Shown: positions 2,231-28,160 of the stretch, piece by piece | Layout: each line of letters begins with the position of its first letter | Position numbering within the stretch: position 1 is the stretch's first letter | Assembly: GCF_000424325.1 (NCBI RefSeq) | Contig: NZ_AUJR01000031.1 | Coordinates: forward strand, 1 to 64,000 | Direction of reading: 5' to 3' | Length of the DNA: 64,000 bases | Source of the DNA: [Clostridium] clostridioforme AGR2157 | GTDB taxonomy: Bacteria; Bacillota; Clostridia; Lachnospirales; Lachnospiraceae | The notes under the pieces: generated by a model | Database searches by the model: none | Seen by the model: the letters and a program-made list of their open reading frames with translations, nothing else | What the model was told of the DNA's origin: nothing | Made by a program: the position numbers and the translations under genes

Positions 2231-2241
2231 ACGGGCCCCCT

Positions 2242-3360: not shown

Positions 3361-3640
3361 CTATTTTCCTACTGTAAAGGAAAGCACGATATCTCCGTCA
3401 GACGCAGATGCATTTATATTCCGTTTGGAACCATGGTCTTTCTCGTAATCCTCTTCCTGCTCAAAGTCAGTCTGTTTTAAATCAGCCTGTTTCAGGTTGC
3501 AGCTGCCATCTGACATTTCCAGGGAAAATCCGTCAGCAATCATCGCCTTGCCGTACCGACAGCCTTAGTCTGCTGTTGCGTGATACCTTTGGTTATCTGC
3601 TCTGCTTTCCTTCCCGTCAGGTTTACGTTTCCATAGGATG
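3361..3640 (-). pseudogene. Fragment resembling a DUF4097-type (putative adhesin) repeat protein
   Basis: A 60-codon frame (3361-3543) contains the repetitive beta-strand wording typical of DUF4097 proteins: SLEMSDGSCNL, LKQADLKQTDF, and a final SASDGDIVLSFT. Just upstream, in a different frame, LLTSSYGNVNLTG fits the same fold. The two parts are separated by a frame change near 3545, so this appears to be a broken gene end. The region 3640-3820 shows no convincing gene on either strand. Confidence 0.4.
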
Positions 3641-3820
3641 AGGTGAGTAAATGCCCAATCCCCTGACTGTAATAACGCCGGAGCATCCTGGAAGCCGCCC
3701 GGTCCATGGGATATGGCTGCGGACAGCTGGCAGGCCGTTATCTGCTAACTGCCTGTGACGGGTACCGCTGCGATTATTACGAAGCATGGCATGAGATATG
3801 GGACAATGGATGATGCTTTG

Positions 3821-5803
3821 TCAGCTGACGATTTTCAGATACACCCTGGATGTGAGTATATATACAGCCGCATAGATAACCGCGAACACTGCCAGGGTTC
3901 CGGTCGTGGTGGCTGCAAAAAGCCTTACATTGGTCAGGTTCATGGCTGACAGCAGCTTTGTAATAAGGGGAAAGGCTGCTGTGATGTGCATGGCTGCGGC
4001 AGCTAAGGGCAGGAAGAACATTAACAGTATCTGGGAACGTATGGACTGCTTGATTTCTGTTCCTGACAGCCCGACTTTCTGCATGATTTCATAGCGGCCC
4101 TTGTCATCATAGCCCTCTGTCACCTGCTTATAGTAGATAATCAGAACATTGGCCATTACAAAGAGGGCGCCCAGAAAAAGTCCAAGGAACAGCAGTCCGG
4201 CATTCAGCGAATAATAGGAGGCCCTCTGAAGGGCCGCGCACTCTCCCCGGAAACCTTCGGGAATAACGGAAGCCTTTGTCATGATTTCTTCAAAAATACG
4301 GATTTGCGTGTCTTTGTCCTGGTCTAAATCAAATCCGTAATGGTATTGGATATGGGACGCAAATTCCTCTGCCTGCGTCTGCTGGAGAGTCTCCAGAATC
4401 TGCATTTCCTCCATGTCAGGTACGATCAGATAATATACCACAGATCCAAATGTATCAGCTCCCTCCCAAAGCCCATAATCTCCGGCCGGCACAGTTTCAT
4501 AGGTTCTTCCCAAAAGGGTCAGATCATTTTTCTGATAGGTTTTTTCCCGGGTAATGACCATGCACTGGCCTTCTGTCAGCTTTGCGCTGTTTCCTGTTAT
4601 CCGGTTGTAGTCATCCTGGGTCATGACATACATGGGACTGATCCGCTCCAAATCTTCTGCGGTGTATAACTGGCGTACATCAAAGGCGCCCTCCTTGACT
4701 TCCATCACCAGAAGCGGCAGGTCCCGGTAGGCCAGAGTGTTTTTTTCGGATATGTGATTGGCTGACAGCACCTCTTTAACGGCAGATGTGATGACTTCCT
4801 CATCGCTGTCCGCGGCCTTATCCGCCTCCAGCATGATATTGCGCGGAAAGCGGTTCCTCAGGACATCGTCCATACCCACATAGAGGGCCACTGTGCTGGA
4901 CAGCATGACCAGTACGGAGGTGGACAGTATACAGATACCTGCCAGACCCGCGGCGTTCTGCTTCATGCGGTACAAAAGTCCGGATACAGATATGAAATGA
5001 CTGGTCTTGTAATAAAACTCCTTCCGCCTTTTCAGGAATTTTAAAAGTGCGATGCTTCCCGCGGTAAACAGAAGGTATGTGCCAATCATCACAAGGATGG
5101 ATGCCAGGAAAAACACACTGATTGCAAGGGCCGGATTTTTGGTAGTAATGGCCATGTAATATCCGCTCCCCAAGGCCAGGATACCGGCTATGGCAGTGAT
5201 GCCGTGAGTTTTCGGCTCCCTTTCTCCCATACGGCTGCCATGAAGGAGGTCCACCGGGCTGCTTATGTGTACCCTGGCCAAATTGACAGCGAGAATGACC
5301 AGGAACACCAATCCATATAAGAGAATGGATAAGGCGGCCGCTGTTCCGGAAAAGTAGAATCCCCACTGCACAGGCGCTTCCAGCAGGCCCAGCAGCAAAA
5401 GATAGACTGCTTTGGACAGGATAAATCCTCCTGCGATTCCGGCTGTAAGGCTTATGGCAGCAATGATGAGGGTTTCAAAAAACAGGATTTTCCCGATATG
5501 CCGCTTGCCCATCCCCAGTATGTTATACAGCCCAATCTCCATCTTCCGCCGTTTCATCAGAAAGCTGTTTGTATAGAACAGGAATCCCCCGGTAAACAGC
5601 GTGGTGATGAAGCATCCAAGATTTAAAATGGTCCGCATGTCGGAGCCGCCATTCATTTGGGCAATCTGTTCATTGGAGGCCAGGGTGAGAAGAATGTCAA
5701 ACATCATCACGGACCCGGTGCAGGTCAGGATATACGGAACATAGGTCCGGGCATTTTTCCGGATGTTCTGAACTGCCAGTTTTAAGTAGAATATACCATT
5801 CAT
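3821..5803 (-). CDS. bceB: BceB-type ABC transporter permease
   Basis: A 660-residue FtsX-like membrane protein of the bacitracin/peptide-resistance type. It starts with an amphipathic segment and TM1 (about 18-38), followed by a paired-helix FtsX domain (KMEIGLYNILGMGKRHI at about 87-105). A large extracellular domain of about 200 residues lies between later helices, and a final helix bundle closes the protein. BceB proteins sense and remove cell-wall-active peptides together with BceA and signal to BceS. The ATG overlaps the bceA stop by 4 bp, which indicates coupled translation. Length and layout are normal. Confidence 0.9.
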   Translation of the reverse strand: MNGIFYLKLAVQNIRKNARTYVPYILTCTGSVMMFDILLTLASNEQIAQMNGGSDMRTILNLGCFITTLFTGGFLFYTNSFLMKRRKMEIGLYNILGMGKRHIGKILFFETLIIAAISLTAGIAGGFILSKAVYLLLLGLLEAPVQWGFYFSGTAAALSILLYGLVFLVILAVNLARVHISSPVDLLHGSRMGEREPKTHGITAIAGILALGSGYYMAITTKNPALAISVFFLASILVMIGTYLLFTAGSIALLKFLKRRKEFYYKTSHFISVSGLLYRMKQNAAGLAGICILSTSVLVMLSSTVALYVGMDDVLRNRFPRNIMLEADKAADSDEEVITSAVKEVLSANHISEKNTLAYRDLPLLVMEVKEGAFDVRQLYTAEDLERISPMYVMTQDDYNRITGNSAKLTEGQCMVITREKTYQKNDLTLLGRTYETVPAGDYGLWEGADTFGSVVYYLIVPDMEEMQILETLQQTQAEEFASHIQYHYGFDLDQDKDTQIRIFEEIMTKASVIPEGFRGECAALQRASYYSLNAGLLFLGLFLGALFVMANVLIIYYKQVTEGYDDKGRYEIMQKVGLSGTEIKQSIRSQILLMFFLPLAAAAMHITAAFPLITKLLSAMNLTNVRLFAATTTGTLAVFAVIYAAVYILTSRVYLKIVS

Positions 5804-6564
5804 GCCCGATCACCACCTGTCGTTATCATAGTCAATGTATCTGCAATGTTCTGGTACAGCTCATCATTTGTTTTCTTTCCACGGTAGAGCTGATGGAATA
5901 CCTCACCGTCCTTTATAAACAGCACGCGCCCGGCATGGCTGGCTGCCCGGACACTGTGGGTCACCATCAGGATGGTCTGCCCTTCCCGGTTGATTTCCCC
6001 GAACATCCGAAGAAGTCCGTCTGCTGCCTTGGAATCCAGGGCCCCGGTGGGCTCGTCCGCCAGCAGGATGCCCGGATTGGTAATGAGGGCCCGTGCTGCT
6101 GCGGTTCTCTGTTTCTGTCCGCCGGATATTTCATAGGGAAATTTATTCAGCAGTTCGGACAGCCTCAGCTTTGCGGAAAGAGGCACAAGCCTGCGCTCCA
6201 TCTCCTCATAGGGAAGCTTTGATAACACCAGGGGCAGAAAGATATTATCTTTTACCGTAAAGGTATCCAGCAGGTTGAAATCCTGGAATACAAATCCCAG
6301 ATGGCCTCGCCTAAACTCCGCCATCTTGTGCTCCGGGATGCTGTTTAAATCAGTTCCCTTTAGAAAGACAGAACCGGAAGTTGGCCGGTCCAGGGCTGCC
6401 AGTATATTGAGCAGCGTTGTCTTTCCGGAACCGGATTCCCCCATGATGGCAACAAACTCTCCCTCTTCCACTGTAAAGCTGACATCCGCCAGGGCCTGGA
6501 CCCGGTTTCCGCCAAAGCGGGTGGTGTATATTTTTTTCAGGTGCCGTACATCCAAAACAGCCAT
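5800..6564 (-). CDS. bceA: BceA-type ABC transporter ATPase
   Basis: A 254-residue ATPase of the lipoprotein/peptide exporter (MacB/BceA) branch. Walker A is GESGSGKTT (residues 42-50), the Q-loop is FVFQDFN, the signature is SGGQKQR, and Walker B is ILLADEPTGALD, followed by the H-loop MVTHS. It pairs with the BceB permease immediately downstream. An ATG preceded by GGAGGAATAAAGC starts it. It has its own promoter with a likely BceR box, so it may be expressed apart from the regulator genes. Confidence 0.93.
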   Translation of the reverse strand: MAVLDVRHLKKIYTTRFGGNRVQALADVSFTVEEGEFVAIMGESGSGKTTLLNILAALDRPTSGSVFLKGTDLNSIPEHKMAEFRRGHLGFVFQDFNLLDTFTVKDNIFLPLVLSKLPYEEMERRLVPLSAKLRLSELLNKFPYEISGGQKQRTAAARALITNPGILLADEPTGALDSKAADGLLRMFGEINREGQTILMVTHSVRAASHAGRVLFIKDGEVFHQLYRGKKTNDELYQNIADTLTMITTGGDRA

Positions 6565-6627
6565 GCTTTATTCCTCCAATCTCATTTATCGGTCATTTCC
6601 AAGTGACATAAGATGTAATACACATGC

Positions 6628-6701
6628 ATTATACAAAATCAGGGAAAGGGCTGCCATGGCTGTATCTTACATTTTCCTTTGGAGGCTTACATTTTTGTAA
6701 G
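6628..6701 (-). promoter_or_regulatory. bceAB promoter with BceR-like operator
   Basis: On the minus strand a TATAAT box (6628-6633) lacks a good -35. Upstream lies the palindrome CTTACATTTTTGTAAG (6686-6701, plus-strand spelling) and a second CTTACATTTT at 6666-6675. The two direct copies are exactly 20 bp apart, two helical turns. This layout fits dimeric activation by an OmpR-type regulator, most simply the BceR encoded upstream. Confidence 0.6.
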
Positions 6702-6742
6702 ATTGGCCGCGGTATCTGTCAGGTAAAACAAGGTGAAGGGGG

Positions 6743-7780
6743 TTATTCCACCGGAAGGGATTCACTTCCAAGACGAATCCGGACCACGGTGCCCTTACCT
6801 GGTTCTGATTCAACCGATATGCTGTGTGACAGGCGCCTTAGAATTCTCCTGCACAGATAGAGTCCGATGCCGGAAGAACGCTTATCAGAATGTCCGTTAT
6901 AACCGGTAAAGCCTTTCTCGAAAATACGGGGCTGGTCTTCCCATGCAATTCCTATTCCGGTGTCCCGGATGACCAGGGTTGTTTCGGGATCTTCTTCCAC
7001 CCATATGGTGACTCCGCCCTGCCTTGTATATTTCACGGAATTGGACAAAATCTGTTACACCACAAACACCAGCCATTTTTCATCAGTCAGAACTCTGCGG
7101 TTAAGCGGTTCATAGGTTAATGACAGTCTTTTCCGTATGAACATTCCGGCATATTTGTGTACGGCCTGCCGCACAATGCGGTCCAGGTCATTCCACTGGA
7201 CAATCAGGTCATTGTGATTGTCCAGCCGCAGGTATTGCAGTACCATGTTCACATATTCCTCAATTTTAAACAGCTGTTCTGTAAGCTCCGGGGCTGATTC
7301 GCTCTCCTGCTTCTGCAGTAAAAGCCTCATGGCCGCAATGGGTGTCTTTATCTGATGGACCCACATGGCATAGTAGTCAGACATTTCATTCCGTTCCCTT
7401 TCAGCCTGGCTGCGGATTCGTTCCCTGTCCCTGCCGACCAATGTCAGCAGATTCTGGTATTCTGTTTCCAGCAATGAACCGGAGTCAGGATAGGACTCAA
7501 TGTAAGAATGGTCCGGGTCGCGCATGAAAGCAGATTCCATACGGGATAATAAGCCGGCCTTTCTGCAAAATTGCCTGTAATGCCATGCAACAAGCGGGAC
7601 CGCAGCGCAGATACACAGCAGGAATCCGTACAGGACTGCCTCCGCAGGCAGACGGTATCCATAAAATACAGCGCCAAAGATCGCGGTAAAAAGTAAAATG
7701 AGGCTGATAAACCCCCTGTACCGCTTCAAATATTCCATGGCCAGCGGCCCACTGGAACTATTTCTTGTATTCTCTGCCAT
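6743..7780 (-). pseudogene. bceS: BceS-type sensor histidine kinase interrupted by an in-frame TAA
   Basis: The kinase reads in one frame from the ATG at 7780 (SD GGGAGGT) to 6743, except for a TAA at 7055-7057. The first part has two membrane helices (about 25-65) with almost no extracellular loop, the intramembrane-sensing layout of BceS, plus the H-box VHQIKTPIAAMRL. The second part has the N-box (ILSNSVKYT), G1 (IRDTGIGI) and G2 (SSGIGLYLCRR) ATP-binding boxes. The stop falls where relatives have FVxEQILSN, so one base change from GAA or CAA could explain it. Without readthrough, no ATP-binding domain is made. Confidence 0.85.
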
Positions 7781-14700: not shown

Positions 14701-15162
14701 TTATCCTTCAATGGAGATATATTTCTTCTCCTCTGCCAGGGACTTTGCTTCCTTCTTGGAAATGGACAGTCTCAGGATGCCGTGCTTGAATTCACCCTTT
14801 ATATCCTCTTCAGTCACATCCCCGCCCACATAGAAGCTTCTCTCGCAGGCACCGGCATAACGCTCCTGGCGGATATATCTGCCGCTGTTCTTCTCCTGCT
14901 CATCCTTATCCAATCCTTTGGCAGCGCAGATGGTCAAATATCCGTCCTTGAGGGATACCTTGATTTCGTCCTTCTTAAATCCCGGCAAATCCATTTCCAG
15001 CTCATATCCTGTATCTGTTTCACGGATGTCGGTTTTCATCAGGTTTTTGCCTCTGCGTCCATATAATTTCTTCTCCAGCTTCATCATATCCCTGTCGTCA
15101 AAAAATGGATCCCTGAAAAATTCATCAAACATATTTTCACCAAAAATACTGGGCATTAACAT
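14701..15162 (-). CDS. Small heat-shock protein Hsp20 (second of pair)
   Basis: A 153-residue alpha-crystallin-type holdase. The N-terminus MLMPSIFGEN is shared with the upstream copy. The alpha-crystallin domain (about 45-145) has GYELEMDLPGFKKDEIKV, YIRQERYAGACERSFYV and the closing GILRLSISKKE. Compared with its neighbour it carries about 14 extra basic residues after the N-terminal arm (KKLYGRRGKN). It binds unfolding proteins without ATP and hands them to DnaK/DnaJ. An 86-bp gap separates it from the first copy, and the terminator at 14630 closes the unit. Confidence 0.93.
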   Translation of the reverse strand: MLMPSIFGENMFDEFFRDPFFDDRDMMKLEKKLYGRRGKNLMKTDIRETDTGYELEMDLPGFKKDEIKVSLKDGYLTICAAKGLDKDEQEKNSGRYIRQERYAGACERSFYVGGDVTEEDIKGEFKHGILRLSISKKEAKSLAEEKKYISIEG

Positions 15163-15248
15163 ACATCATTCCTCCTTTGTTATCTGTGCGGCTCCCGGAG
15201 ACAGTTCCGGGAGCAATGTATGTTTAGGTCTGTCTGTCACATATCAGT

Positions 15249-15668
15249 TTAACCTTCGATTGCAATATACTTTTTCTCTTCCACGGCCGGTTTTGCTTCT
15301 TTCTTGGGAACCAGCATCTTCAGGGTGCCGTCCTCGAATTTGGCCTTGATGTCCTCCTGGGTCACTGCGTCACCTACATAGAAGCTTCTGCTGCAGGAAC
15401 CGACATAACGCTCCCTGCGGATGTAGGTTCCGTTGGAATCCTTCTCATCCTTGCTGGAATCTGTTGTGGCCTGTATGGTCAGATAGCCGTCCTTGAGCTC
15501 TGCCTTTACATCTTCTTTTTTGACACCGGGCATGTTCATGGTTATCTCATAGCCATTTTCAGTATCCTTGATATCGGTATTCAGCATATCGAATGTCTTG
15601 TGGCTGCCGAATGAGTAATCAAAAAAGTCATCCAATAAGTTTTCTCCAAAAATACTAGGCATCAACAT
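15249..15668 (-). CDS. Small heat-shock protein Hsp20 (first of pair)
   Basis: A 139-residue alpha-crystallin-family chaperone with the same MLMPSIFGEN start as the copy downstream. Domain marks are GYEITMNMPGVKKEDVKAEL, YIRRERYVGSCSRSFYV and TLKMLVPKKEAKP. It is preceded by AAAGGAGAG. It is the promoter-proximal gene after the CIRCE-controlled promoter at 15795-15837, with a 5' leader of about 120 nt containing a hairpin (ATGAAAT/ATTTCAT at 15742-15762). Confidence 0.94.
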   Translation of the reverse strand: MLMPSIFGENLLDDFFDYSFGSHKTFDMLNTDIKDTENGYEITMNMPGVKKEDVKAELKDGYLTIQATTDSSKDEKDSNGTYIRRERYVGSCSRSFYVGDAVTQEDIKAKFEDGTLKMLVPKKEAKPAVEEKKYIAIEG

Positions 15669-17986: not shown

Positions 17987-18859
17987 CTATTCAATGGGCG
18001 CCTGATAAAATCCGCCGTAAAAGTTTTCCGTTTTAATCATATTGACAATGACATGGGGATCCTGTTCCCGCATGAGATGCACAATATCGTTCACCTCATA
18101 GGAGGACACCACGGTGTGAAGCAGATACATCTTCTTATGACTGTAACCGCCCACTGCATCCACACAGGATATGCCGTGTCTGTATTGTTTTATGTACTGA
18201 TTTATGATTTCCGGCGCCTTGGTGGTGGTAATCTGCAGTGTAACCCGTTCATACCTGTGATGGAAGGCAGAGATGGCTTTGGTGGATACGAACTGGAACA
18301 GGATGGAATATCCTGCATACAGCCATCCGAACATGTATCCGAAGATGCAGAGAATCACGCAGTTGCCTGCAAACACATATTCCCATATAGACCGCCCTGT
18401 CTTATTGGAAACATACAGGGCAATGAAGTCCGTGCCGCCTGTGGAGGCATTTCCCCTTAAGGCAATGGCAATGGACAGTCCGTACAGGAAACCGCCGAAA
18501 ACCACATCCAGAAGCACATCGTTGAACAGGGGTTCAAAGCTGCATATTTTGAGAAAGAAGCTGGCCAGGAACACCTGAAGCATGGAATAAAAGGTAAAAC
18601 GCATGCTGATGCTCCTGCTGCAGAGGATGGCCACCGGTATATTGAGGACCAGCATTCCCAGGGAGGTGGAAATATTGTGCCCGTAGAGGGAGGCAATCCT
18701 GTCAATGAGGATAGCCACACCGGTAAATCCGCTGGACAGAAGGTTGGCCGGCCGTATAAATGCCTGAATCACATAGGTCTGCAGCAGGGCGGACGCTACT
18801 ACAGCCAGGATGGTTATGAGCCTTCTCACCAGTATGTTCTTTTTGTATTTTGCTATCAT
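17987..18859 (-). CDS. YitT-family membrane protein
   Basis: A 290-residue protein with about five to six membrane helices (YitT/DUF161 part, residues about 10-200) and a soluble C-terminal DUF2179 domain (about 210-285). An ATG at 18859 with GGGGAG 8 nt upstream starts it, 4 bp after the cutC stop. It is the last gene of the PTS-peptidase operon. The family is widespread in Firmicutes; its transport or regulatory role is not settled. A 224-bp gap without a gene follows downstream. Confidence 0.88.
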   Translation of the reverse strand: MIAKYKKNILVRRLITILAVVASALLQTYVIQAFIRPANLLSSGFTGVAILIDRIASLYGHNISTSLGMLVLNIPVAILCSRSISMRFTFYSMLQVFLASFFLKICSFEPLFNDVLLDVVFGGFLYGLSIAIALRGNASTGGTDFIALYVSNKTGRSIWEYVFAGNCVILCIFGYMFGWLYAGYSILFQFVSTKAISAFHHRYERVTLQITTTKAPEIINQYIKQYRHGISCVDAVGGYSHKKMYLLHTVVSSYEVNDIVHLMREQDPHVIVNMIKTENFYGGFYQAPIE

Positions 18860-18863
18860 GGTC

Positions 18864-19610
18864 CTATCTCCCCAACTCCCCAAGGCTGTCTAAGAGCTGG
18901 CGGACCAGTGTCTCTGACACCACGTCATAGCAGTTTGCATGGGGAGGTTCTGCAAAGCCGTAGGTCACTCCATTGGAAGTGGTGGTGGGGTCCGTCATCC
19001 AGTCCTTGCAGGAGCTGTGTACCTGCTTTATTCCGGTTTCTTCCATGAGCTTTCTGGCATTGGAGGCATTGATGCCGCTTCCGGCCAGGATTTCGATGCT
19101 GTTTCCATAAGCTGACTGAAGGGCTCCCAACAGAGCCTTTCCTTCCACTGCCTTTGGTTTTAAACCGCTGGTCAAAAGACGGTCAGCCCCCAGCTCAATC
19201 AGGGTCTCTATGGATTCATAGGGGTTGGAGGTGCAGTCAAAGGCCCGGTGGAATACTGCTTCCTTTCCATGGCTGTGGATAATGGAAATCATTCGGGCAT
19301 TCCTTTCCCTGTCAATGGAGGCGTCCTCCCTAAGACAGCCGAAGGCAATGCCGTCCGCTCCGTGGCGGACCAGATGTTCGCATTCCCTGAGCATTACATC
19401 AAAATCTTCTTCACTGTAACAGAATCCGCCGCCTCTGGGCCGGACCATGGCAATTACCTTCACATTGCAGTGTTCCTTCACAAGTTCCAGGGATGCCAGG
19501 GAGGGCGTGAGCCCGCCCATGTGCAGGGCGCAGTTCAGTTCAATCCGTCCGGCTCCACCGGACGCAGCCTGCAGGGCATCGTAGTAGCTGCCGCAGCATA
19601 TCTCCAACAT
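18864..19610 (-). CDS. cutC: CutC-family TIM-barrel protein
   Basis: A 248-residue barrel protein matching CutC throughout: EICCGSYYDALQAASGGAGRIELN, GLTPSLASL, VKVIAMVRPRGGGFCYS, HRAFDCTSNP, RLLTSGLKP and ILAGSGINASNA. CutC was named for copper tolerance, but a direct copper role is doubtful and many members sit in sugar or glycoside loci. Here it lies between a dipeptidase gene and yitT in one operon. An enzymatic role on the imported substrate is possible but unproved. Confidence 0.93.
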   Translation of the reverse strand: MLEICCGSYYDALQAASGGAGRIELNCALHMGGLTPSLASLELVKEHCNVKVIAMVRPRGGGFCYSEEDFDVMLRECEHLVRHGADGIAFGCLREDASIDRERNARMISIIHSHGKEAVFHRAFDCTSNPYESIETLIELGADRLLTSGLKPKAVEGKALLGALQSAYGNSIEILAGSGINASNARKLMEETGIKQVHSSCKDWMTDPTTTSNGVTYGFAEPPHANCYDVVSETLVRQLLDSLGELGR

Positions 19611-19660
19611 ATAAAAACCTCTCCTTCTTCCTGTCCATCAGCACAGTACCGGCCAAAGGC

Positions 19661-20836
19661 CTAAAGCTGTGCAAGACGGTACAGGGCCAGTGCATATATT
19701 TTTGCGTTGGTTACCAGGTCGTCCACGGTCATCCACTCATTTGGATTGTGGCTGATTCCCTTTTGGCCCGGAAAACTGGGACCGAATGGGACAATTCCGG
19801 GCATGGCCTTGGCATAGGTGCCGCCGGTGGTGGTCACGGGAGTGCCGTCCATGCCCGTGACCCGCTCATAGCTGTCCTGCATGGCTTTTACCATGGGCGT
19901 ATCCTTGGCAAAAACCACCGGATCATAGTTCTGTACCAGCTTTGCCTTCAGGCCGCAGCACTCTGCCTTTTCCGTTATGGGCTTCATGATTTCCCGGATG
20001 GTGATACCGCCCGGGTAGCTTAAGGTGGCGTCAAAGGATACCATGTTTTCCGTGTTTCCGTGGCCGGCGTTCCCATGTCCGGCGTTCCCGCCGGGCTCTA
20101 AACCCAGTCTGTAACCGCGCATTTCCATCATACCATATTCTTCATGGTAGTAGTCAATACCCAATCGGTCGCCTGTGTTTCCGGCGCCGATAAAATATTT
20201 GTTTACAAAGTCGAAAAATGTACCCAGGCATTCCCTTGTGCCAATGATGCGCACCACTGCCCTTCCTCGCTCACTGTATACCACAGGATATTTGCAGTCC
20301 GGCGTAAATCCGTAAACAGGAGGTTTTTCTTTTGACAGATAGTACCTGAGGTCCTCAAATCCCGTTTCCTCGTCACATCCGAAGATGATGCGCACCGGAT
20401 GCCTGAGGGTAAGCCCCAGCGCCTTGACAGCGGCCAGCCCGTACAGGCAGGCCATGACAGGCCCTTTATTGTCCAATACTCCCCTGCTGTATATGACTCC
20501 GTTTTCCATATAGCCGCTGAAAGGCGGCTCCCTCCAGCCCTCGCCCACCGGCACCACGTCCACATGCCCCATGGCGCAGACATAGTCTTCTCCCCTGCCA
20601 TAGAATGCATATCCGATGTATCCGTCCAGATTAACGGTTTCAAAGCCCATCTCCCTGCTGATGGAGAGGGCCAGGTCCAGGGCTTCCTTTACACCGGGGC
20701 CAAAGGGAGCCCCATCCCGGGCCTCCCTTTCCACGCTGTCAATGCGCACCATCTGACGAACATGTTCAATCAGCCGGTCCCGGTTTTCGTCGATATAGTC
20801 CAGAAGCTTTCTGTCTATCTGATTCTGCTCATCCAT
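19661..20836 (-). CDS. M20-family (Sapep/PepV-like) metallodipeptidase
   Basis: Zinc peptidase with the family marks MGHVDVVPVGEGW (first metal His), YSRGVLDNKGPVMA (bridging Asp) and CDEETGFEDLRYY (catalytic and metal Glu). The C-terminus has the second metal-site region TTGGTYAKAMPG and GISHNPNEW. It likely cleaves dipeptides in the cytoplasm. The ATG at 20836 lies 4 bp after the stop of the Ntn hydrolase gene. A short HGNAGHGN repeat near residue 265 is a local oddity. Confidence 0.9.
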   Translation of the reverse strand: MDEQNQIDRKLLDYIDENRDRLIEHVRQMVRIDSVEREARDGAPFGPGVKEALDLALSISREMGFETVNLDGYIGYAFYGRGEDYVCAMGHVDVVPVGEGWREPPFSGYMENGVIYSRGVLDNKGPVMACLYGLAAVKALGLTLRHPVRIIFGCDEETGFEDLRYYLSKEKPPVYGFTPDCKYPVVYSERGRAVVRIIGTRECLGTFFDFVNKYFIGAGNTGDRLGIDYYHEEYGMMEMRGYRLGLEPGGNAGHGNAGHGNTENMVSFDATLSYPGGITIREIMKPITEKAECCGLKAKLVQNYDPVVFAKDTPMVKAMQDSYERVTGMDGTPVTTTGGTYAKAMPGIVPFGPSFPGQKGISHNPNEWMTVDDLVTNAKIYALALYRLAQL

Positions 20837-20840
20837 ATTC

Positions 20841-21821
20841 CTATTCCTCAATGGGCGCCATGCGCGTCTTCATATAGTTTTCCATCCACTCATCCGATGC
20901 CTTTTCGTAGGTACAGCGGCCGTCCTCCTGGCGGGTCACCAGATACACGGTTGGCTCCAGGGCCTCTGTGACAACGGCAAAGGAAAATCCCTCTATGTTG
21001 GTGGCCACGCCCCACTCGCCCTTTGGGTTCATGGCTATAAGGGATAAATCACCTGCCTCGCCCCTGCGCTCCCTAAGCTCCGCGTCCAGGCGGGACACGG
21101 CGGTCTCACAGGCCTCCTGGGGATGCATACCCTCTCCCATGAGGCGAACGATTTCATAGGAAATGCAGCCCTTCATCAGGTCCTCACCCAGGCCGGTGGC
21201 ACTGGCAGCGCCCTTTTTGCTGTCAGCATAGAATCCGGAGCCGGATATGGGCGAGTCCCCTACTCTGCCCTTCTTCTTCATAAAGAGGCCGCTGGTGGAG
21301 GTAGCGGCTGTCATTTTGCCGGTTATGTCCAGGCAGGCCATGCCCACGGTATCGTGGCCGGAGTATGGCTTAAGCTTTTGGGAGGCGGTCTGGACGGCTG
21401 CCTGGGCGGACATCTCCTTTAAGCGTTTTCTGTAATGGGCCTTTGCCCGGTCTGTCAGCATATTCTTGCGCTCAAATCCTTCCTTGTGGGCGAATTTTTC
21501 AGCGCCCTCCGCCACCAGCAGGCTGTTGACCTTTTCATGGCTCAAGCGCCTGGCAATGGACACAGGATTGGCAAAGTCCCTGATGGCCGCAACAGCGCCG
21601 ATATCCAGGGTATTGCCGTCCATAAAGGCAGCGTCCATTTCCACTTCCATCTCCTCGTTGGGAAGTCCGCCGTAGCCAACGGATTTATAGTAAGGAAAAT
21701 CCTCCACTTCCCGGATGGCAGACTCGATGGCGTCTCCTGCGTCCCCGCCGTCCTTTAACATTTCGGCGCCCTTAGTGATTCCCTCCACTGCCATGCGCCA
21801 GGTTGCAATCATACCCCACAT
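20841..21821 (-). CDS. N4-(beta-N-acetylglucosaminyl)-L-asparaginase / isoaspartyl peptidase-type Ntn hydrolase
   Basis: A 326-residue Ntn hydrolase that should self-cleave before the Thr in GHDTVGMACLD to expose its nucleophile, the hallmark of aspartylglucosaminidase (human enzyme: HDTIG). Other marks are IATWRMAVEGI at the start, SVGYGGLPN, GRVGDSPISGSGFYAD and GAASATGLGEDL. This subgroup cuts the GlcNAc-Asn bond or isoaspartyl dipeptides. No signal peptide, so it acts on imported substrate. It starts 15 bp after the GrdB-like gene, with AGAGGAGG upstream. Confidence 0.88.
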   Translation of the reverse strand: MWGMIATWRMAVEGITKGAEMLKDGGDAGDAIESAIREVEDFPYYKSVGYGGLPNEEMEVEMDAAFMDGNTLDIGAVAAIRDFANPVSIARRLSHEKVNSLLVAEGAEKFAHKEGFERKNMLTDRAKAHYRKRLKEMSAQAAVQTASQKLKPYSGHDTVGMACLDITGKMTAATSTSGLFMKKKGRVGDSPISGSGFYADSKKGAASATGLGEDLMKGCISYEIVRLMGEGMHPQEACETAVSRLDAELRERRGEAGDLSLIAMNPKGEWGVATNIEGFSFAVVTEALEPTVYLVTRQEDGRCTYEKASDEWMENYMKTRMAPIEE

Positions 21822-21836
21822 CCTGCATATCCTCCT

Positions 21837-22361
21837 CTATTTGAAACAGAATTTATGTTCCAGTTCCGCTGTATCGCTGCCGTCAGCCAGTGCCTTTGCC
21901 AGTTCACACATGTTCTTAAGCGCGTCGTTCAGTCCCATGCCGCCCTTTTTCGGTGTTTCCACAATGGCCACCTTATCCTTGTAGGCGGCGATGGTATCCT
22001 TGTTCTCTACGGACATGGCTGCAAATGCCTTTGCCTTTGTGGTGGCGTTGATGTCGCATGCCACCTTTGCGCACATGGCCGCATAGTCAGCGAAGTTAAA
22101 GGCAGGACCGCACATGACCACATCCGGCTGCAGCTTATTTACCATGGCGCAGAGCTTGCGGCTTACCTCCTCCGGGTCAGCTAAGAAGGTTCCGTTGCCG
22201 CAGCACAGGCAGGCTGTCACATGGCCGTCCACCTTCTTTAAGAAGGGCTCCATCATGACTGCGGGACCGATGGGCTCCTTTTTGCCTGTAAGGGGAACCA
22301 TTGTGTCATCTTTTGTTCCAAGACCGGACTGAATCTGGTCGTATATCATAATAATTTTCAT
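21837..22361 (-). CDS. Stand-alone GrdB/PrdB-related protein
   Basis: The 174 residues resemble the N-terminal half of the B subunits of glycine/betaine/sarcosine and proline reductases: an opening KIIMIYDQIQSGLGT, CLCCGNGTFLADPEEV, VVMCGPAFNFADYAAMC, and KDKVAIVETPKKGGMGLNDAL. The C-terminal catalytic half with selenocysteine is absent, and no other reductase subunit is nearby. A Cys-x-Cys-Cys motif stands in the middle. The ATG at 22361 has GAGGTG 7 nt upstream. Its position between PTS IIC and the Ntn hydrolase suggests a role in the same pathway. Confidence 0.65.
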   Translation of the reverse strand: MKIIMIYDQIQSGLGTKDDTMVPLTGKKEPIGPAVMMEPFLKKVDGHVTACLCCGNGTFLADPEEVSRKLCAMVNKLQPDVVMCGPAFNFADYAAMCAKVACDINATTKAKAFAAMSVENKDTIAAYKDKVAIVETPKKGGMGLNDALKNMCELAKALADGSDTAELEHKFCFK

Positions 22362-22433
22362 TATCTTCACCTCATATTATTGTATCCCCATTGGGATTGT
22401 CAAAGGAAAGCCGGGCCGTCAATGGCAGCCGTC

Positions 22434-23768
22434 CTACAGGTCGTCAAAGGAAAGGTCATCAAAGTCAATGTCATCGTCATCTGATTTCTCAGAAGCCTTG
22501 GCCTCATCTTCCAGGTACTGCTTATCCATCATCTTAATGAACGGCATGTAGATAAATACTCCCAGTATGAGAAGCAGCAGCTGCAGTACGGCTCCCTGCC
22601 ATCCTGTTGCCAGGAATCCGGACAGCACCACAGGCATGGTCCATGGAATGGCAACGCCCGTACAGAGGGGAACCAGACCAATGCTCATACAGAAATAAGA
22701 AATCACGATGTTTATGGTCGGCACCAGCATAAAAGGAATGAGAATCATTGGGTTCAGCACAATGGGAAGGCCGAACACGATGGGCTCGTTGATGCCGAAC
22801 ACGCCGGGGATTAACGCCAGTTTGCCTAATTCCTTGATACGCTTGGAATGGCAGAATAAAAGCATTGCGATGAGCAGTGACAGTGTGGAACCGCATCCGC
22901 CGAAGGTTGCGAACAAATCCTGGAACTGCTGGGAAATGATATTGGGCAGTGCCTGGCCAGCCTGGAATGCAGCCAGGTTGTCGGCAGACAGGGTCTGAAG
23001 GATGGGATTGAACACAGCGCCTACCACGGAACCGCCGTTCACTCCAAAGAACCAGAAGAAGTGAAGGAATATATATGCGATTACCATGGCCGGAAGCGTA
23101 TTGCCCAGCTTTAAAAGCGGTGTCTGCAAAATAGTAAAGATAAAGTTAAATGCATTTTTATAAGGAGTCATTGCAAATACGATATTCATGATAAAGAATA
23201 CCAGTATGGAAACACCAGCAGGAATCAGGGCCGAAAACGACTTTGATACCGTAGGAGGAACGCCGTCAGGCATCTTGATGACCCAGCCCTTTTTGTTTAC
23301 CCACGCATAGATATGGACTGACAGGAAGGCTACGATGATTCCCACGAAGATACCTTTGGATCCCACCCAGTTTAACGGAATTCCGGTGACGCTGGAACCG
23401 CCGTCCACAAGAATCTCGTAGGGCATGATGAGGAACCAGCTTACCAGGGCAATGGCGGCTCCGAAAAGCTTATCTGCGTTCATCTGTTCTGCGAAGGAAT
23501 AGCCAATGCCTACAACGGCCAGCACTGCCATGATGGAGAAGGTGGCGTCAGTGGGCTTTGAAAAATAGGATGCCCAGTTGTCCCCGAAAAACCGGGCCCA
23601 GAAATCCGTCCATCCCGGTATTGGGAAGTTGGCAATCAGCAGGAAAAAGGACCCTACGATTAATAGCGGCATGGACAGCAGGAAGCCGTCACGGATGGCA
23701 ATGAGATATTTATTCTTTCCGATTTTCTCTGCCAATGGCATGAGTACGGACTCTAACTTATTTAGCAT
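22434..23768 (-). CDS. PTS system IIC component, lactose/chitobiose family
   Basis: A 444-residue permease of the CelB/ChbC type with about ten helices. It starts LNKLESVLMPLAEKIGKNKY, then RDGFLLSMPLLIVGSFFLL, and has the substrate-loop marks FFWFFGVNGGSV and GINEPIVFGLPIVLNP. It ends with an unusually acidic tail (DDDDIDFDDLSFDDL). The family moves beta-linked disaccharides such as diacetylchitobiose and cellobiose while IIB phosphorylates them at C6. It forms one transporter with the IIB and IIA genes just upstream. Confidence 0.95.
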   Translation of the reverse strand: MLNKLESVLMPLAEKIGKNKYLIAIRDGFLLSMPLLIVGSFFLLIANFPIPGWTDFWARFFGDNWASYFSKPTDATFSIMAVLAVVGIGYSFAEQMNADKLFGAAIALVSWFLIMPYEILVDGGSSVTGIPLNWVGSKGIFVGIIVAFLSVHIYAWVNKKGWVIKMPDGVPPTVSKSFSALIPAGVSILVFFIMNIVFAMTPYKNAFNFIFTILQTPLLKLGNTLPAMVIAYIFLHFFWFFGVNGGSVVGAVFNPILQTLSADNLAAFQAGQALPNIISQQFQDLFATFGGCGSTLSLLIAMLLFCHSKRIKELGKLALIPGVFGINEPIVFGLPIVLNPMILIPFMLVPTINIVISYFCMSIGLVPLCTGVAIPWTMPVVLSGFLATGWQGAVLQLLLLILGVFIYMPFIKMMDKQYLEDEAKASEKSDDDDIDFDDLSFDDL

Positions 23769-23836
23769 GATTCATGTTCCCCCATTTCAACTATGATTGT
23801 TTTAACCCAGGCCGGCTGCGATGCTGCGCCGGACTG

Positions 23837-24157
23837 TTATTTTGCTGATTTCATGAGCTTGATGGCTGATTTCAGCACCTTCTCACCGTTCATCATACCG
23901 TAATCCGTCTGATCGATGACCTGAATCGGGATGCCTTTGCCGCCGTACTTTTCCACGATTTCGCCGTAGCGGTATTTGACCTGGGGTCCTAAGAGAATCA
24001 CATCCGGGTGCTTCTCATCAATAATCTGACCAATCTTTCCGTCCGGGAAGGCCTCCACTTCGATGGGAAGGTCATGGGAATTGGCTACGCCCTGCATCTT
24101 GCTTGCCAGCATACTGGTGGACATTCCCGCGCTGCAAAATAAATATACTCGTTTCAT
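23837..24157 (-). CDS. PTS system IIB component, lactose/chitobiose family
   Basis: A 106-residue cytoplasmic protein with the phospho-Cys loop LFCSAGMSTSML (Cys8). It resembles ChbB/CelA along its length, including HPDVILLGPQVKYRYGEI. It takes phosphate from IIA and passes it to the sugar bound by IIC. The gaps to IIA (79 bp) and IIC (68 bp) are typical for one transcript. Confidence 0.96.
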   Translation of the reverse strand: MKRVYLFCSAGMSTSMLASKMQGVANSHDLPIEVEAFPDGKIGQIIDEKHPDVILLGPQVKYRYGEIVEKYGGKGIPIQVIDQTDYGMMNGEKVLKSAIKLMKSAK

Positions 24158-24236
24158 GATTAAATCCTCCTTGATATATATAGCTTCCTTTTATTGTTCC
24201 TGTTTTATACCGACGGGTAAAACACCGTATCTGTCC

Positions 24237-24575
24237 TTACCGATTTTCCAGCTTTTTCTCCAGTTCAGCGATTCTTTCGTAGCTGGCAATCATCTCTTCT
24301 GCGATAATTTTAAAGCCTTCCGCGCTCATGAGCTGGTCTTCTGCATGAACCAGAATCATGGAACCGCCTACCTGCTCTCCCTGGGCTTCCTTCTGAATCA
24401 GTTCAAAGTGGGCCTCATGTCCAACTAAGAACATCTCCTGTCCAGTCCTTATACATTCCCTGGCGCCCTCAAAGTCGCCCTGCTTTGCTTTCTGGATTGC
24501 TTCGATGTAGCTGGAACGCGCTCCTCCTACATTGGAGATAATTTTGAAGCAAATCATTTCTAATCCCTCTATCAT
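24237..24575 (-). CDS. PTS system IIA component, lactose/chitobiose family
   Basis: A 112-residue three-helix protein with phospho-acceptor His77 in SMILVHAEDQLM, as in LacA/ChbA. It accepts phosphate from HPr. AAGGAGG is 8 nt before the ATG. It is the first gene of the unit and is preceded by a 120-bp leader with a -10 box, an AATGCA/TGCATT hairpin (about 24610-24641) and the 19-bp operator. Confidence 0.95.
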   Translation of the reverse strand: MIEGLEMICFKIISNVGGARSSYIEAIQKAKQGDFEGARECIRTGQEMFLVGHEAHFELIQKEAQGEQVGGSMILVHAEDQLMSAEGFKIIAEEMIASYERIAELEKKLENR

Positions 24576-24658
24576 TTTTACTGCCTCCTTACTGCTTTTG
24601 AAACGAGAAAATGCAACAAAACCATTCTGTTTGCTGCATTTCTTATTAAGTTGCCTTA

Positions 24659-24715
24659 ATTATAAGACAGTTATTCACTTTTTTTCCTTAAAGGCATTTC
24701 CTAGCTGTTAGGAAA
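24659..24715 (-). promoter_or_regulatory. Promoter and 19-bp operator of the PTS-peptidase operon
   Basis: TATAAT (24659-24664) lacks a recognisable -35. The near-palindrome TTTCCTAGCTGTTAGGAAA (24697-24715) starts 33 bp upstream of the end of the -10 box. The identical 19 bp, inverted, stands before mupG at the same distance. The weak -35 with an operator centred near -54 fits activation, most likely by the LicR-type protein whose gene ends at 24717. Confidence 0.75.
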
Positions 24716-24716
24716 T

Positions 24717-26636
24717 TCAACCCATAATTCTGTCAATAAATTCCTCATAGCTGCATGGAGCCACTAATTTTGCCAGCTCCTCAGGCTGGTTTACCACATT
24801 GGATACCCAGTCAAAGAAAATTTTAATCATTCTGGCATCCCCCTCGTTGATGGCGAAAAGCATGACCAGACGCACCTCAAAGGCGCCCCATTTCACCGGA
24901 TTCTTAAGCTGCGCCACGGCAATGGTGGAATTTCTTGCAAAGGCGCCAAAGGCATGGGGAATGGCAAAGATGTTCACAAAGGAAGTGGGCGACATCTGCT
25001 CCCTCTTTAAGACCACTTCCGTGAATTCCGGCTCCACGATGCCCTCCTTTTCCAGGCCCGCGCACAGCATACGGATGATTTCCTCGGGCTGGTCCATGTC
25101 TACCTGGGAGTGATAATGCTCCTTTCGTATCAGGTTCCCTATATGGGATGTGAATTCCAGCCGGAAGCCCTTTTTGTCCAGGCGGTTGATGGCCTGGAGG
25201 ATTTTTGACTCCGTTTCCGAGTCCACAAACAGGTTGATGGAGACTGTCTCCACATCCAATCTGTGCTCCAGGGGAAAGGTGCTGAGGAGCAAATCCGGAT
25301 CCAGGGCCGACACTTCGTCCTCCTCGAAATAGCCGAATACCTTTAACACCTCCATCCGCTCACGGAACATGTCGGATATCTTCTTCACACACATGTCGGA
25401 GAAGGACTGGTTGTGGGGCAGAATCATCACAGCCCTGTATTTTCTCACGGAATTCATGCGTTCACTGGCAGCTCCCAGGTGAAGGGCAATATAACAGCTT
25501 TCCACATCTGATATGGGCCGTCCCAGCCGCTGCTCCAGAAACTCCAGCACATAGATTCCCATTTCAAATACAAGGGGATATTTGCGCTTGATTTCCTCCA
25601 CGAACACATCCTCCATCCGCACCTGGTTCTTAACACGTTCGATGAGTCCGTGAAAATGCATCTTAAGACCTGCCATCAGGTCGTCGTCCTGCCTGAAATC
25701 CAGGCCGAACAGGGCATAGACCTGTTCCAGGGCCTCAGCCACCAGCTTCTTGGTATTCATCCACTTCCCATTATAATTGACAAAATCGCTGGTGTAATTG
25801 GAAGCCCGTCTGCCCATGATTACCAGGGCAAACATGCCCACCTCGCCGTCGTGGACCGTTATGTGCAGCCGCTTGGAAATGCGGTCAAAGAAGGTCTGGG
25901 ATATCTGGTATTCGATGGTTTCCTCCAGCCCCTGCATCCCCTCCTCCATATTGATGTAATTAGCGCAGTTCATCCGTTCAATGCTGGTCCCCGCATGAAG
26001 AATCAGCATGGGAAACATGGACTCATGGATGGAATAATCATATTCTTCCAGCACATTCACAAAGATATCCTTGACCTCAATCAGGTTAAAGCTTCTGTAG
26101 AGATGGGCCAGGGTGTTCAGGTTAAGGAAGTTCTCCTGCACCTCAGCCACCAGTAAATCCCGGTAGAAACGGCGCTTGCTGGCCTCGTCTCCCTTTAAGG
26201 ATATGCATTCCTTGTTCCGCACCAGCTTAAGGCCGCCGTAAGGCTCCAGCATCTTGCGTATGCGCTTTAAATCATTGTCAATGGAATAACCGCTGACATA
26301 GATCTGACTCTGGAGCATGGTAAGGTTCAGCTCCTTTACCTCAAAAAGCAATTTTTGTATCATGTATGCACAGCGGGCGCCGGGAGTCTGGGGAATGTCT
26401 GCCTCCCTTGTCTCTGCCCCGGACGCCAGGGCAGGCCGTGCATCCTCGCACAGCCTGTATCCCTGACGCACATTGGACTCGATGGGCGGCGGGTCCATGC
26501 GCTTATTGATGGCCCCCACATCGGAGCGGATGGTCCGGTCCGACACCTGCAGAAGGCCGGCCAGCTGCAGGCTGGTCATCCAGTCCCCCCGCTCTGATAA
26601 TATGGCAAGCAGCTGCTCCTGTCTTTTATTCTGCAT
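24717..26636 (-). CDS. LicR-type PRD transcriptional activator
   Basis: A 639-residue multidomain regulator. An N-terminal HTH (about 5-55, LLQVSDRTIRSDV) and a second HTH-like region (about 90-170) are followed by two PRD domains, each with the phosphorylatable His context (LHAGTSIERM and ALHLGAASERM). A IIB-like domain (about 405-490) and a IIA domain (about 500-637, active His in FAIPHAFGAF) complete it. Phosphorylation by HPr and PTS proteins should tune it to substrate flow. AAGGAG precedes the ATG, 24 bp after mupG, with which it is probably co-transcribed. Confidence 0.92.
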   Translation of the reverse strand: MQNKRQEQLLAILSERGDWMTSLQLAGLLQVSDRTIRSDVGAINKRMDPPPIESNVRQGYRLCEDARPALASGAETREADIPQTPGARCAYMIQKLLFEVKELNLTMLQSQIYVSGYSIDNDLKRIRKMLEPYGGLKLVRNKECISLKGDEASKRRFYRDLLVAEVQENFLNLNTLAHLYRSFNLIEVKDIFVNVLEEYDYSIHESMFPMLILHAGTSIERMNCANYINMEEGMQGLEETIEYQISQTFFDRISKRLHITVHDGEVGMFALVIMGRRASNYTSDFVNYNGKWMNTKKLVAEALEQVYALFGLDFRQDDDLMAGLKMHFHGLIERVKNQVRMEDVFVEEIKRKYPLVFEMGIYVLEFLEQRLGRPISDVESCYIALHLGAASERMNSVRKYRAVMILPHNQSFSDMCVKKISDMFRERMEVLKVFGYFEEDEVSALDPDLLLSTFPLEHRLDVETVSINLFVDSETESKILQAINRLDKKGFRLEFTSHIGNLIRKEHYHSQVDMDQPEEIIRMLCAGLEKEGIVEPEFTEVVLKREQMSPTSFVNIFAIPHAFGAFARNSTIAVAQLKNPVKWGAFEVRLVMLFAINEGDARMIKIFFDWVSNVVNQPEELAKLVAPCSYEEFIDRIMG

Positions 26637-26660
26637 GGTTAAACTCCTTCTCCTACAGTC

Positions 26661-27755
26661 TTATACAATACGGAACGCGAACACCCTCCAGGGCTCGATA
26701 TAGTCTAACAGCACATGTTCATACTCCGGCAGATGGCCAATCACATTCTTGCGGCCGTCATTGGGCATATCCTTTGTGACGATGTGGAGCTCTCCTTTAT
26801 ATTTCAGGTAACCGTCATTGAGAATGGCCACATCGCCCTGCTTTAAATCCCTGGTGTTGGCAGCCGGAATGGACTGGTCCGCAAATGTCACCCTGGGCCA
26901 GGTGGAGCGGATCATGTATTCGCTCATATCCCCTCTCGCCACATGCTTTGGCTCATAGTCCAGGATCCGTCTCTCTGTGTCTGTCAGCTCCTTTTCCAGT
27001 TCAATGCCGAAGGTAAGGATGCCGGGATTGACAGCCGCGCAGGCATTGAGCTCCTCGTCCGTCGCATAGGCATTGGCAATCAGCACATCATCAATCATGC
27101 CCGTGGCAAACATATGGCGTACCTGGAAATCCAGCGGAAGGCCGCGGTGCATTTCCAGAGTACAGAGTCCTTCGTTTAAAGGCCATGGACCGTAAGCTCC
27201 GGGCGCATTGCTGGATACAAACGCAGCAACCCTGAGGCCCAGTGATTTCATCTTGTCATTGCACCGGTTAAAATGCTTCAGGCTCAGTCCCGTGTATGCC
27301 TGCGGATAAAAATTATGGCAGGTAATCAGTTTCTCACGGTCCGGATGGTGATCCATGATGTTCTCCACATACACCAGCTTGGTGCTGGCATTCAGCTCCA
27401 CCTTCAGCCCCTGTGGATTATAGGTCATAAGGCTTTCCTTCATGCCGTCAAATCCCTCGTCCAGCCGGATGCCGTCCACATGCATTTCCCGGAACACGGA
27501 CAGGTCCTCATAGGAGATTCCCAGCCTTGAAAATACAGCAGGGCTTACATCCGGAATGATTTCCATGCCGCAGGCATGGGCCTCATCAGCCAAGCGGCGA
27601 AACTGTCCGATGATTACCTCCCTGCTCTTTTCCCCAACACTTAAAAGACAGGTAAAGATCCTCTTATACCCCAGTTTACCTGCCTTTCTGATATACGCTA
27701 TGTCCTGTTCTTCTGTGGAGTGCTCCGGATAAATAGAAATACCTAATCTTGCCAT
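26661..27755 (-). CDS. mupG: MupG-family (DUF871) 6-phospho-N-acetylmuramidase
   Basis: A 364-residue TIM-barrel protein with a small C-terminal beta domain. Family marks are RLGISIYPEHST, CGMEIIPDVSPAVF, GIRLDEGF, LNASTK and CHNFYPQAYTGLS. The Bacillus enzyme cuts MurNAc-6-phosphate-GlcNAc after PTS uptake. The ATG has GAGGGG upstream. With the chitobiose-type PTS this points to beta-linked amino-sugar disaccharides as substrates. It is the first gene of the mupG-licR unit under the second 19-bp operator. Confidence 0.9.
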   Translation of the reverse strand: MARLGISIYPEHSTEEQDIAYIRKAGKLGYKRIFTCLLSVGEKSREVIIGQFRRLADEAHACGMEIIPDVSPAVFSRLGISYEDLSVFREMHVDGIRLDEGFDGMKESLMTYNPQGLKVELNASTKLVYVENIMDHHPDREKLITCHNFYPQAYTGLSLKHFNRCNDKMKSLGLRVAAFVSSNAPGAYGPWPLNEGLCTLEMHRGLPLDFQVRHMFATGMIDDVLIANAYATDEELNACAAVNPGILTFGIELEKELTDTERRILDYEPKHVARGDMSEYMIRSTWPRVTFADQSIPAANTRDLKQGDVAILNDGYLKYKGELHIVTKDMPNDGRKNVIGHLPEYEHVLLDYIEPWRVFAFRIV

Positions 27756-27807: not shown

Positions 27808-27864
27808 ACTATAGCCTGTCAAGAGGGGATTTTGCGGTAAATCCTTTTCCTAACAGCTAGGAAA
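27808..27864 (-). promoter_or_regulatory. Promoter and 19-bp operator of the mupG-licR unit
   Basis: On the minus strand TATAGT (27808-27813) lacks a fitting -35 box. TTTCCTAACAGCTAGGAAA (27846-27864, plus strand) is the exact reverse complement of the site at 24697-24715 and again starts 33 bp beyond the end of the -10 box. A TTGACA between the two boxes does not have usable spacing. Confidence 0.75.
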
Positions 27865-27902: not shown

Positions 27903-28160
27903 TTATAAAATGGTGCGCATGAGCCCCTGTAAGAAACCGGAGGCCTGGCCCTCGTCAGGCCCTTCTACCGTAAGCTCCAGGCTTTCTCCCTGGTGCACGC
28001 CCAGACTCATGAGGGCAAGGACATTCTTACAGTCCGCTGTACCCTTTTGGCTTTTAAGGGTTATCCGGCTCTCATATCCTGCGGCCGCCCTGCTCAGACT
28101 CATGGCATTGGTAGCATGAAGCCCCTGCTTGTCAGATACTACATATTTATAACTTATCAT
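27903..28160 (-). CDS. HPr-family phosphocarrier variant (His15 kept, Ser46 replaced)
   Basis: An 85-residue protein. The active loop reads DKQGLHATNAM: His15 is kept, but the Arg17-Pro18 of the standard GLHARPA loop are Thr-Asn. The regulatory Ser46 position is Asn (ADCKNVLALMSLG), so HPr kinase should not act on it. It may serve a dedicated PTS, such as the neighbouring one, free of catabolite control. AAGGA lies before the ATG. Its leader has a 33-bp palindrome, and its promoter overlaps the divergent ttcA promoter. Confidence 0.85.
   Translation of the reverse strand: MISYKYVVSDKQGLHATNAMSLSRAAAGYESRITLKSQKGTADCKNVLALMSLGVHQGESLELTVEGPDEGQASGFLQGLMRTIL

Follow-up and report, generated by a model that had tools for sequence, protein, structure and literature searches.

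What does a phosphotransferase system (PTS) of the lactose/cellobiose family import when its genes stand beside those for a glycosylasparaginase and a dipeptidase? The question is raised by a cluster of ten genes in a 64,000-nucleotide stretch of [Clostridium] clostridioforme AGR2157 (contig NZ_AUJR01000031.1, positions 1 to 64,000; the whole stretch is called the window here), which runs on the minus strand from position 27755 down to 17987. Family searches recovered every gene family that an earlier note, made from the DNA letters, had named in this cluster, at the coordinates it gave. That note had taken the cluster for one regulon scavenging an amino-sugar disaccharide joined to asparagine (Asn) or a short peptide, either an N-glycan core remnant or a muropeptide. 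We think it likely that the cluster is a regulon for uptake and catabolism of N-acetylglucosaminyl-asparagine (GlcNAc-Asn), an N-glycan stub.

That the ten genes form one regulon, as the earlier note had it, is strongly supported, because two exact copies of the palindrome TTTCCTA-N5-TAGGAAA, one upstream of the gene for the glycoside hydrolase family 170 (GH170) enzyme, here mupG, and one upstream of the PTS operon, are found nowhere else in the 4.94-Mb genome, while the reversed control pattern has no site. With up to two mismatches allowed, the window holds three matches against 0.21 expected, the third lying at 3365 with one mismatch. We searched 20 further cluster-bearing genomes, chosen from loci with PTS and glycosylasparaginase (AGA) irrespective of whether a site had been seen (L032, L033, L043, L046, L048 and L053 were excluded), and found exact sites in 16, with all 22 sites inside the cluster and a single site for the control. 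At the L085/L042 locus, an inserted segment of ∼14 kb, in which an AAA-ATPase/PD-(D/E)XK gene lies, divides the cluster, and a palindrome precedes each half, one of the two in L085 having one mismatch. Among 99 other genomes of the family, one per genus, two carried one exact site each (control, five sites in four genomes), and one of these has none of the ten cluster proteins nearby. The palindrome is thus nearly, but not wholly, private to the cluster system. The regulator encoded in the cluster probably reads it, and would through it switch both transcription units.

Among proteins of solved structure, the amidase of the cluster is most similar to bacterial glycosylasparaginases (E 3e-56), with isoaspartyl peptidases further off (E 2e-37), and the name aspartylglucosaminidase in the earlier note was therefore right in kind. 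In an alignment of 280 residues with glycosylasparaginase of Flavobacterium (Elizabethkingia), W8, T158 (in HDT), R186, D189, T209, and G210 all match that enzyme, and they are invariant in the seven sequences compared, those of the window and of 6 of the 24 loci described below. We take T158 to be the threonine nucleophile that follows HD, and the N-terminal Trp, the Arg/Asp pair and the Thr-Gly pair to be substrate positions. The catalytic and Asn-binding positions of glycosylasparaginase therefore appear to be conserved, which we count in favor of GlcNAc-Asn.

Conservation of the gene set, which the earlier note had proposed as a check, held, and the grouping is more than a chance one. Seeding a scan with the GrdB-like protein produced 24 loci; 23 were kept (L056, from a Nomurabacteria metagenome-assembled genome with 25% identity, was excluded without inspecting its neighborhood), and one further genome brought the number counted to 24. 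In these and the other locus counts, which refer to a distance of 10 kb and include some loci cut by contig ends, IIC, the GrdB-like protein, and AGA were present at all 24, IIA, IIB, and the M20 dipeptidase each at 23, CutC and the PRD regulator each at 22, YitT at 17, and MupG and an RDD membrane protein each at 14. The nearest named relatives were Clostridium, Enterocloster, and Lacrimispora records. Some loci (L137 to L140, for example) have the genes in another order with much of the set retained, YitT often included; we count this cohesion through rearrangement in favor of the GlcNAc-Asn regulon. In Clostridium sp. OS1-26, the M20 gene is in two pieces (L043, from 11586).

To avoid the bias of GrdB seeding, we added surveys seeded with AGA. 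In the organism's own phylum, 12 of 398 genomes had a match at 1e-20 and, besides the genome under study, seven matched at 1e-130 or better. Within 10 kb, the main loci of these seven held a PTS in six cases, CutC in five, and MupG in none; in one of the seven genomes, a short contig carries another copy of AGA (L089). We infer that the four weaker matches are of the isoaspartyl type, and the two inspected have none of the cluster genes around them. In a Bacillota sample, AGA was matched in 37 of 392 genomes, once (G734) by a partial, interrupted copy. Regions were retrieved for 33; G687, the center of the sample, and G688 were already among the loci, and G734 and G794 were left out. The 32 retrieved loci that scored 250 or more with the model included 13 with a PTS, 19 with CutC, 8 with the GrdB-like protein, 8 with MupG, and 12 with YitT.

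These surveys bear on which substrate lies at the core. Many loci have PTS and AGA with no GH170 gene in the stretch read, and for this reason GlcNAc-Asn is more likely the core substrate than a disaccharide-Asn, PTS and AGA forming the core, to which GH170 is an optional extension. Four loci from genomes using the mycoplasma code combine PTS and AGA with a peptidase, M20 in L141 and an M17 aminopeptidase in L143 to L145, and lack GH170, GrdB-like, and CutC genes nearby, CutC being encoded elsewhere in those genomes; L143 also has a DUF3284 match below the cutoff. Five loci of the own phylum hold IIA, AGA, IIB, and CutC with no GH170 in the stretch read (IIC was not detected in L080), and a plasmid locus of Enterococcus raffinosus reads GntR-dipeptidase-AGA-IIB-IIC-IIA, again with no GH170. 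Only 5 of the 13 PTS-type loci in the Bacillota survey carry GH170. The earlier proposal thus stands insofar as it described scavenging of an Asn-linked amino sugar or short glycopeptide by import and phosphorylation, a peptidase, and cleavage of the GlcNAc-Asn bond, and gives way where it put a disaccharide-Asn at the core.

We propose that the PTS would import GlcNAc-Asn, and perhaps short GlcNAc-peptides, and phosphorylate the sugar at C6 to give the 6-phosphate (6P), GlcNAc-6P-Asn. The M20 dipeptidase would trim glycopeptides, taking the neighboring amino acid off glyco-dipeptides, and the glycosylasparaginase would cleave the amide of GlcNAc-Asn, here presumably also of its 6-phosphate, to aspartate and GlcNAc-6P-1-amine. 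The amine would then give GlcNAc-6P and ammonia, either unaided or with assistance, CutC being the best, if speculative, candidate for that part, and NagA and NagB would complete breakdown of the sugar. By analogy with ChbE of Lacticaseibacillus paracasei, the GH170 enzyme may add chitobiosyl-Asn or chitobiose to the range of substrates by separating GlcNAc-6P from GlcNAc(-Asn). Genes for the expected next steps do occur at such loci: NagA and NagB lie beside CutC in L079 (393 and 307 bits, above the cutoffs), and an aspartate ammonia-lyase lies in the AGA locus L130 (641 bits; cutoff, 510), where a second lyase is nearer fumarase. The genome under study has three NagA matches above the cutoff. 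A NagA match in L129 (409 amino acids) was unconfirmed and was not used. Other peptidases (M42 and M17) replace or accompany M20 in some AGA loci.

Several observations weigh against this account. Exact palindromes are absent from 4 of the 20 cluster genomes, of which three have a site with one mismatch and one a site with two, before the regulator or IIA gene. The other background palindrome (L192, ∼1863 to 7400) precedes an operon of PTS IIC, a PRD regulator, and GH4 without AGA, hinting at an operator family common to PRD regulators. Among the Bacillota AGA loci, 19 of 32 were scored without a PTS; contig or region ends truncate some of these 19. The organism's own genome, where GH18 was not searched, yielded no convincing endo-glycosidase; its sole GH85 match lies beside an open reading frame (ORF) that looks GH18-like by eye. 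The peptidase PepV was dispensable in Lacticaseibacillus casei (PMC6960285). Finally, the roles of the GrdB-like and YitT proteins stay outside the proposed explanation, and GH170, which comes first in the window cluster with an operator copy of its own, may be central in this lineage.

This last point leads to a different substrate, chitobiosyl-Asn or N,N'-diacetylchitobiose, from which the PTS would produce GlcNAc-6P-GlcNAc(-Asn), GH170 acting first and AGA finishing the Asn-bearing half. We regard this as possible but improbable. The leading position of GH170, its occurrence at over half of the GrdB-seeded loci, and the reported requirement of L. paracasei ChbE, a GH170 protein encoded beside a cellobiose-type PTS, for growth on chitobiose all speak for it, as does a MupG relative in all four genomes searched, including three whose locus lacks MupG (one relative is in the locus, one is ∼14 kb upstream, and two are on other contigs). 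It is harder to reconcile with the absence of GH170 from the stretch read at all six own-phylum and 8 of 13 Bacillota PTS-type AGA loci, and with the distribution of ROK kinases, which could act on the second, unphosphorylated GlcNAc: none lies within 10 kb at any of 43 PTS-type loci versus 3 of 20 loci without a PTS. The same absence fits phosphorylation of GlcNAc by the PTS, although the numbers are small and, as a further weakness of our account, only one of the three ROK matches (L081, close to AGA and without a PTS) was confirmed by family search, the other two being BLAST matches of 32 and ∼27% identity, 5 to 6 kb off, one on the opposite strand.

The muropeptide substrate of the earlier note is very unlikely. 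Peptidoglycan salvage, with MupG acting on 6-phosphorylated N-acetylmuramic acid (MurNAc)-GlcNAc and with the hydrolase and M20 enzyme cutting beta-aspartyl or other muropeptide bonds, would suit the names of the MupG_N and MupG_C families, taken from the 6-phospho-N-acetylmuramidase of Staphylococcus aureus, and the Asparaginase_2 family, which takes in isoaspartyl peptidases. The hydrolase is nearer glycosylasparaginases, however, and retains the Trp aligned with that of the bacterial enzyme. A peptidoglycan-recycling GH170 MupG is expected with a MurNAc-6P etherase (MurQ) in the same cluster, and no MurQ/SIS protein is among the ten cluster proteins, MurQ not having been searched genome-wide; in three Bacteroidota (Hymenobacter) plasmids, the partners of AGA are N-glycan genes. 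We give even less credence to a PTS for another Asn conjugate or an unrelated beta-glycoside, with AGA, CutC, and the peptidase as nitrogen-salvage genes in the same operon. An operator of the same form does precede the GH4/PTS operon of L192, yet the four mycoplasma-code loci retain PTS-AGA and a peptidase, and the ega locus of Enterococcus faecalis is reported for GlcNAc-Asn.

CutC, which occurs from bacteria to humans, has long been filed as a copper-homeostasis protein, and its biochemical role is unsettled. In the Bacillota sample, it was found in 113 of 392 genomes, distributed as 36 of the 37 with AGA versus 77 of the 355 without (Fisher p 1e-20, a value that ignores kinship and genome size); excluding G687 and G688, the count is 34 of 35 AGA genomes (p 1e-19). 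A control of similar frequency, arginine deiminase, showed no tie (11/37 with AGA versus 127/355 without; p 0.59). In 21 of the 37 AGA genomes (19 of 35 excluding the same two), CutC and AGA are no more than 5 kb apart, and in 15 of the other 16 CutC is elsewhere in the genome. In a second phylum, the AGA and CutC genes overlap by 4 bases in three Hymenobacter plasmids, near a GH92 mannosidase, with a ROK kinase in two and NagB and a GH18 gene in one.

The association has its limits. No annotated CutC was seen within 6 kb of the AGA genes in plasmid records of Persicobacter, Sphingomonas, and Thermomicrobium, nor any CutC within 9 kb at the AGA loci of E. raffinosus and L. curvatus (8 AGA plasmid records were inspected of 40 listed among 130, and plasmid gene annotation is incomplete). 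Of eight CutC plasmid regions, chosen by eye among the 60 records listed out of 67, two carried no annotation and were left out. CutC sits among unrelated genes on Parabacteroides, Cetobacterium, and Entomospira plasmids, and on alphaproteobacterial plasmids (L163, L166, and L167) its neighbors are a BadF-type kinase in Asticcacaulis, NagA/SIS in Sphingomonas, and MurQ-ROK in Qingshengfaniella, respectively, which suggest a wider connection with amino-sugar metabolism. The predicted CutC structure is closest, after CutC itself, to phosphosugar TIM (triosephosphate isomerase) barrels. We regard the involvement of CutC in amino-sugar catabolism as well supported, and its role cannot be confined to the AGA pathway, because 77 genomes have CutC without AGA. 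A specific version, in which CutC converts 1-amino-GlcNAc or its 6-phosphate to the free sugar after glycosylasparaginase and the GrdB-like protein assists with this C-N chemistry in the PTS branch, is a tentative idea that we would not bet on. A limited search of the open-access literature found no paper joining CutC with glycosylasparaginase.

The GrdB-like protein has 177 amino acids matching positions 2 to 163 of a 347-position profile, reaches 53 bits with TIGR01917 versus a cutoff of 602, and is not a glycine reductase selenoprotein B (GrdB), as the C-terminal half and the selenocysteine site are missing. In the seeded scan, the short protein was found solely in a PTS-AGA setting (23 of 23 kept loci); the family also occurs in the L. 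curvatus AGA-PTS locus, and among 295 genomes of the order only two passed the NF041545 cutoff, both carrying the cluster. The protein has conserved cysteines and an alpha/beta fold of a common kind, features compatible with more than one role. A decayed copy in E. faecalis OG1RF, if of the same family, suggests that it is dispensable. The genome under study holds, outside the cluster (G000:C9:31943-32437), another GrdB-like gene in a stop-free frame of 352 residues, below the family cutoff.

The pathway is not of a new type. The direct counterpart is the ega locus of E. faecalis (Combret et al., Res Microbiol 175:104169), which is reported to comprise a PTS, a glycosylasparaginase, and a dipeptidase and to serve GlcNAc-Asn use; like the window cluster, it combines a lactose/cellobiose-family PTS with the two enzymes, and its oxidoreductase pseudogene is cited to a GrdB paper, a citation that suggests the family of our GrdB-like protein. 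It differs in having a GntR regulator instead of an HTH-PRD-EIIA regulator with the palindrome, and neither the available ega description nor the annotated stretch of the E. raffinosus locus, which has the ega layout and an AGA 56% identical to ours, includes GH170, CutC, or YitT. With its different regulator, the window cluster is a variant and not the same type of locus as ega.

Other steps are known from lactobacilli. In alf-2 of L. casei BL23 (PMC6960285), the glycosylasparaginase AsnA2 is active on GlcNAc-Asn and adjoins an M20 peptidase, PepV, as in the window, and 1-amino-GlcNAc is assumed to decay spontaneously; unlike the window cluster, alf-2 has an MFS permease, an alpha-fucosidase, a SugK kinase for GlcNAc, an aspartate decarboxylase, and a GntR regulator, and the legend to Fig. 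7 of that paper places PTS genes near such clusters in other lactobacilli. The chb genes of L. paracasei (PMC12791066) share GH170 and a cellobiose-type PTS with the window, and ChbE is needed for use of GlcNAc2, probably after phosphorylation by the PTS, whereas the substrate is chitobiose and the genes listed include the DUF3284 protein ChbD and no glycosylasparaginase or peptidase. MupG/MurP recycling in S. aureus (PMC6262408) also employs a GH170 enzyme on a PTS-phosphorylated disaccharide but with MurNAc as the substrate and MurP as the transporter, and the window cluster has no MurQ-like gene. The window combines parts described for GlcNAc-Asn in ega and for other steps in alf-2 and chb; its novelty lies in the clostridial form, which has a PRD regulator, an operator, GH170, CutC, and YitT, and in the link between CutC and AGA.

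Features of the cluster and its surroundings (positions in the window)
Feature	Position	Strand	Evidence
HPr-family protein, directly upstream of mupG operator	27903..28160	-	PF00381 72 bits; TIGR01003 63 bits, above cutoff
Operator palindrome upstream of mupG	27846..27864	.	Exact match
GH170 6-phospho-glycosidase family (MupG-like)	26661..27755	-	PF19200 301 bits; PF05913 123 bits; PDB 1x7f, E 2e-115
Helix-turn-helix (HTH)/Mga-PRD-PRD-EIIA transcriptional regulator	24717..26636	-	PF08279; PF05043; PF00874 (two stretches); PF00359
Second palindrome copy, upstream of PTS operon (before IIA)	24697..24715	.	Exact match
PTS IIA, lactose/cellobiose family	24237..24575	-	PF02255 105 bits
PTS IIB, lactose/cellobiose family	23837..24157	-	PF02302 60 bits
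PTS IIC, lactose/cellobiose family	22434..23768	-	PF02378 236 bits; TIGR00410 460 bits, above cutoff
GrdB-like protein without selenocysteine	21837..22361	-	NF041545 245 bits, cutoff 175; model pLDDT (predicted local distance difference test) 93
Glycosylasparaginase, AGA/AsnA2/EgaG-like N-terminal nucleophile (Ntn) hydrolase (Asparaginase_2)	20841..21821	-	PF01112 236 bits
M20 Sapep/PepV-like dipeptidase	19661..20836	-	TIGR01887 321 bits, cutoff 208
CutC family TIM barrel	18864..19610	-	CutC sequence family and CutC fold
YitT/DUF2179 membrane protein	17987..18883	-	PF02588 155 bits; PF10035

Two starts were set by eye, the GrdB-like protein at an ATG at 22361 (the ORF program starts at a GTG at 22370) and the M20 dipeptidase at an ATG at 20836 (program start, a TTG at 20851). 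The HPr-like gene, which like the operators does not figure in the earlier note, is a possible accessory, present in 6 of 71 loci searched (L034 to L036 and L038 to L040), all close relatives. By eye, its active-site motif is GLHATNA, which we take to be without the arginine usual at that site. Two tandem small heat-shock-like proteins were also seen by eye in the window, at 14701 to 15668 on the minus strand.

These results take GlcNAc-Asn scavenging beyond the cases reported in Enterococcus and lactobacilli, into Lachnospiraceae, Clostridium, Erysipelotrichia, and other anaerobes, and the palindrome provides a DNA signature for finding the regulon. The larger prize is the tie to CutC. In the Bacillota sample, CutC accompanies glycosylasparaginase almost without exception, which makes it feasible to test the enzyme directly. 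If the proposed role is true, CutC would carry out the glycosylamine step that the L. casei work left to spontaneous decay.

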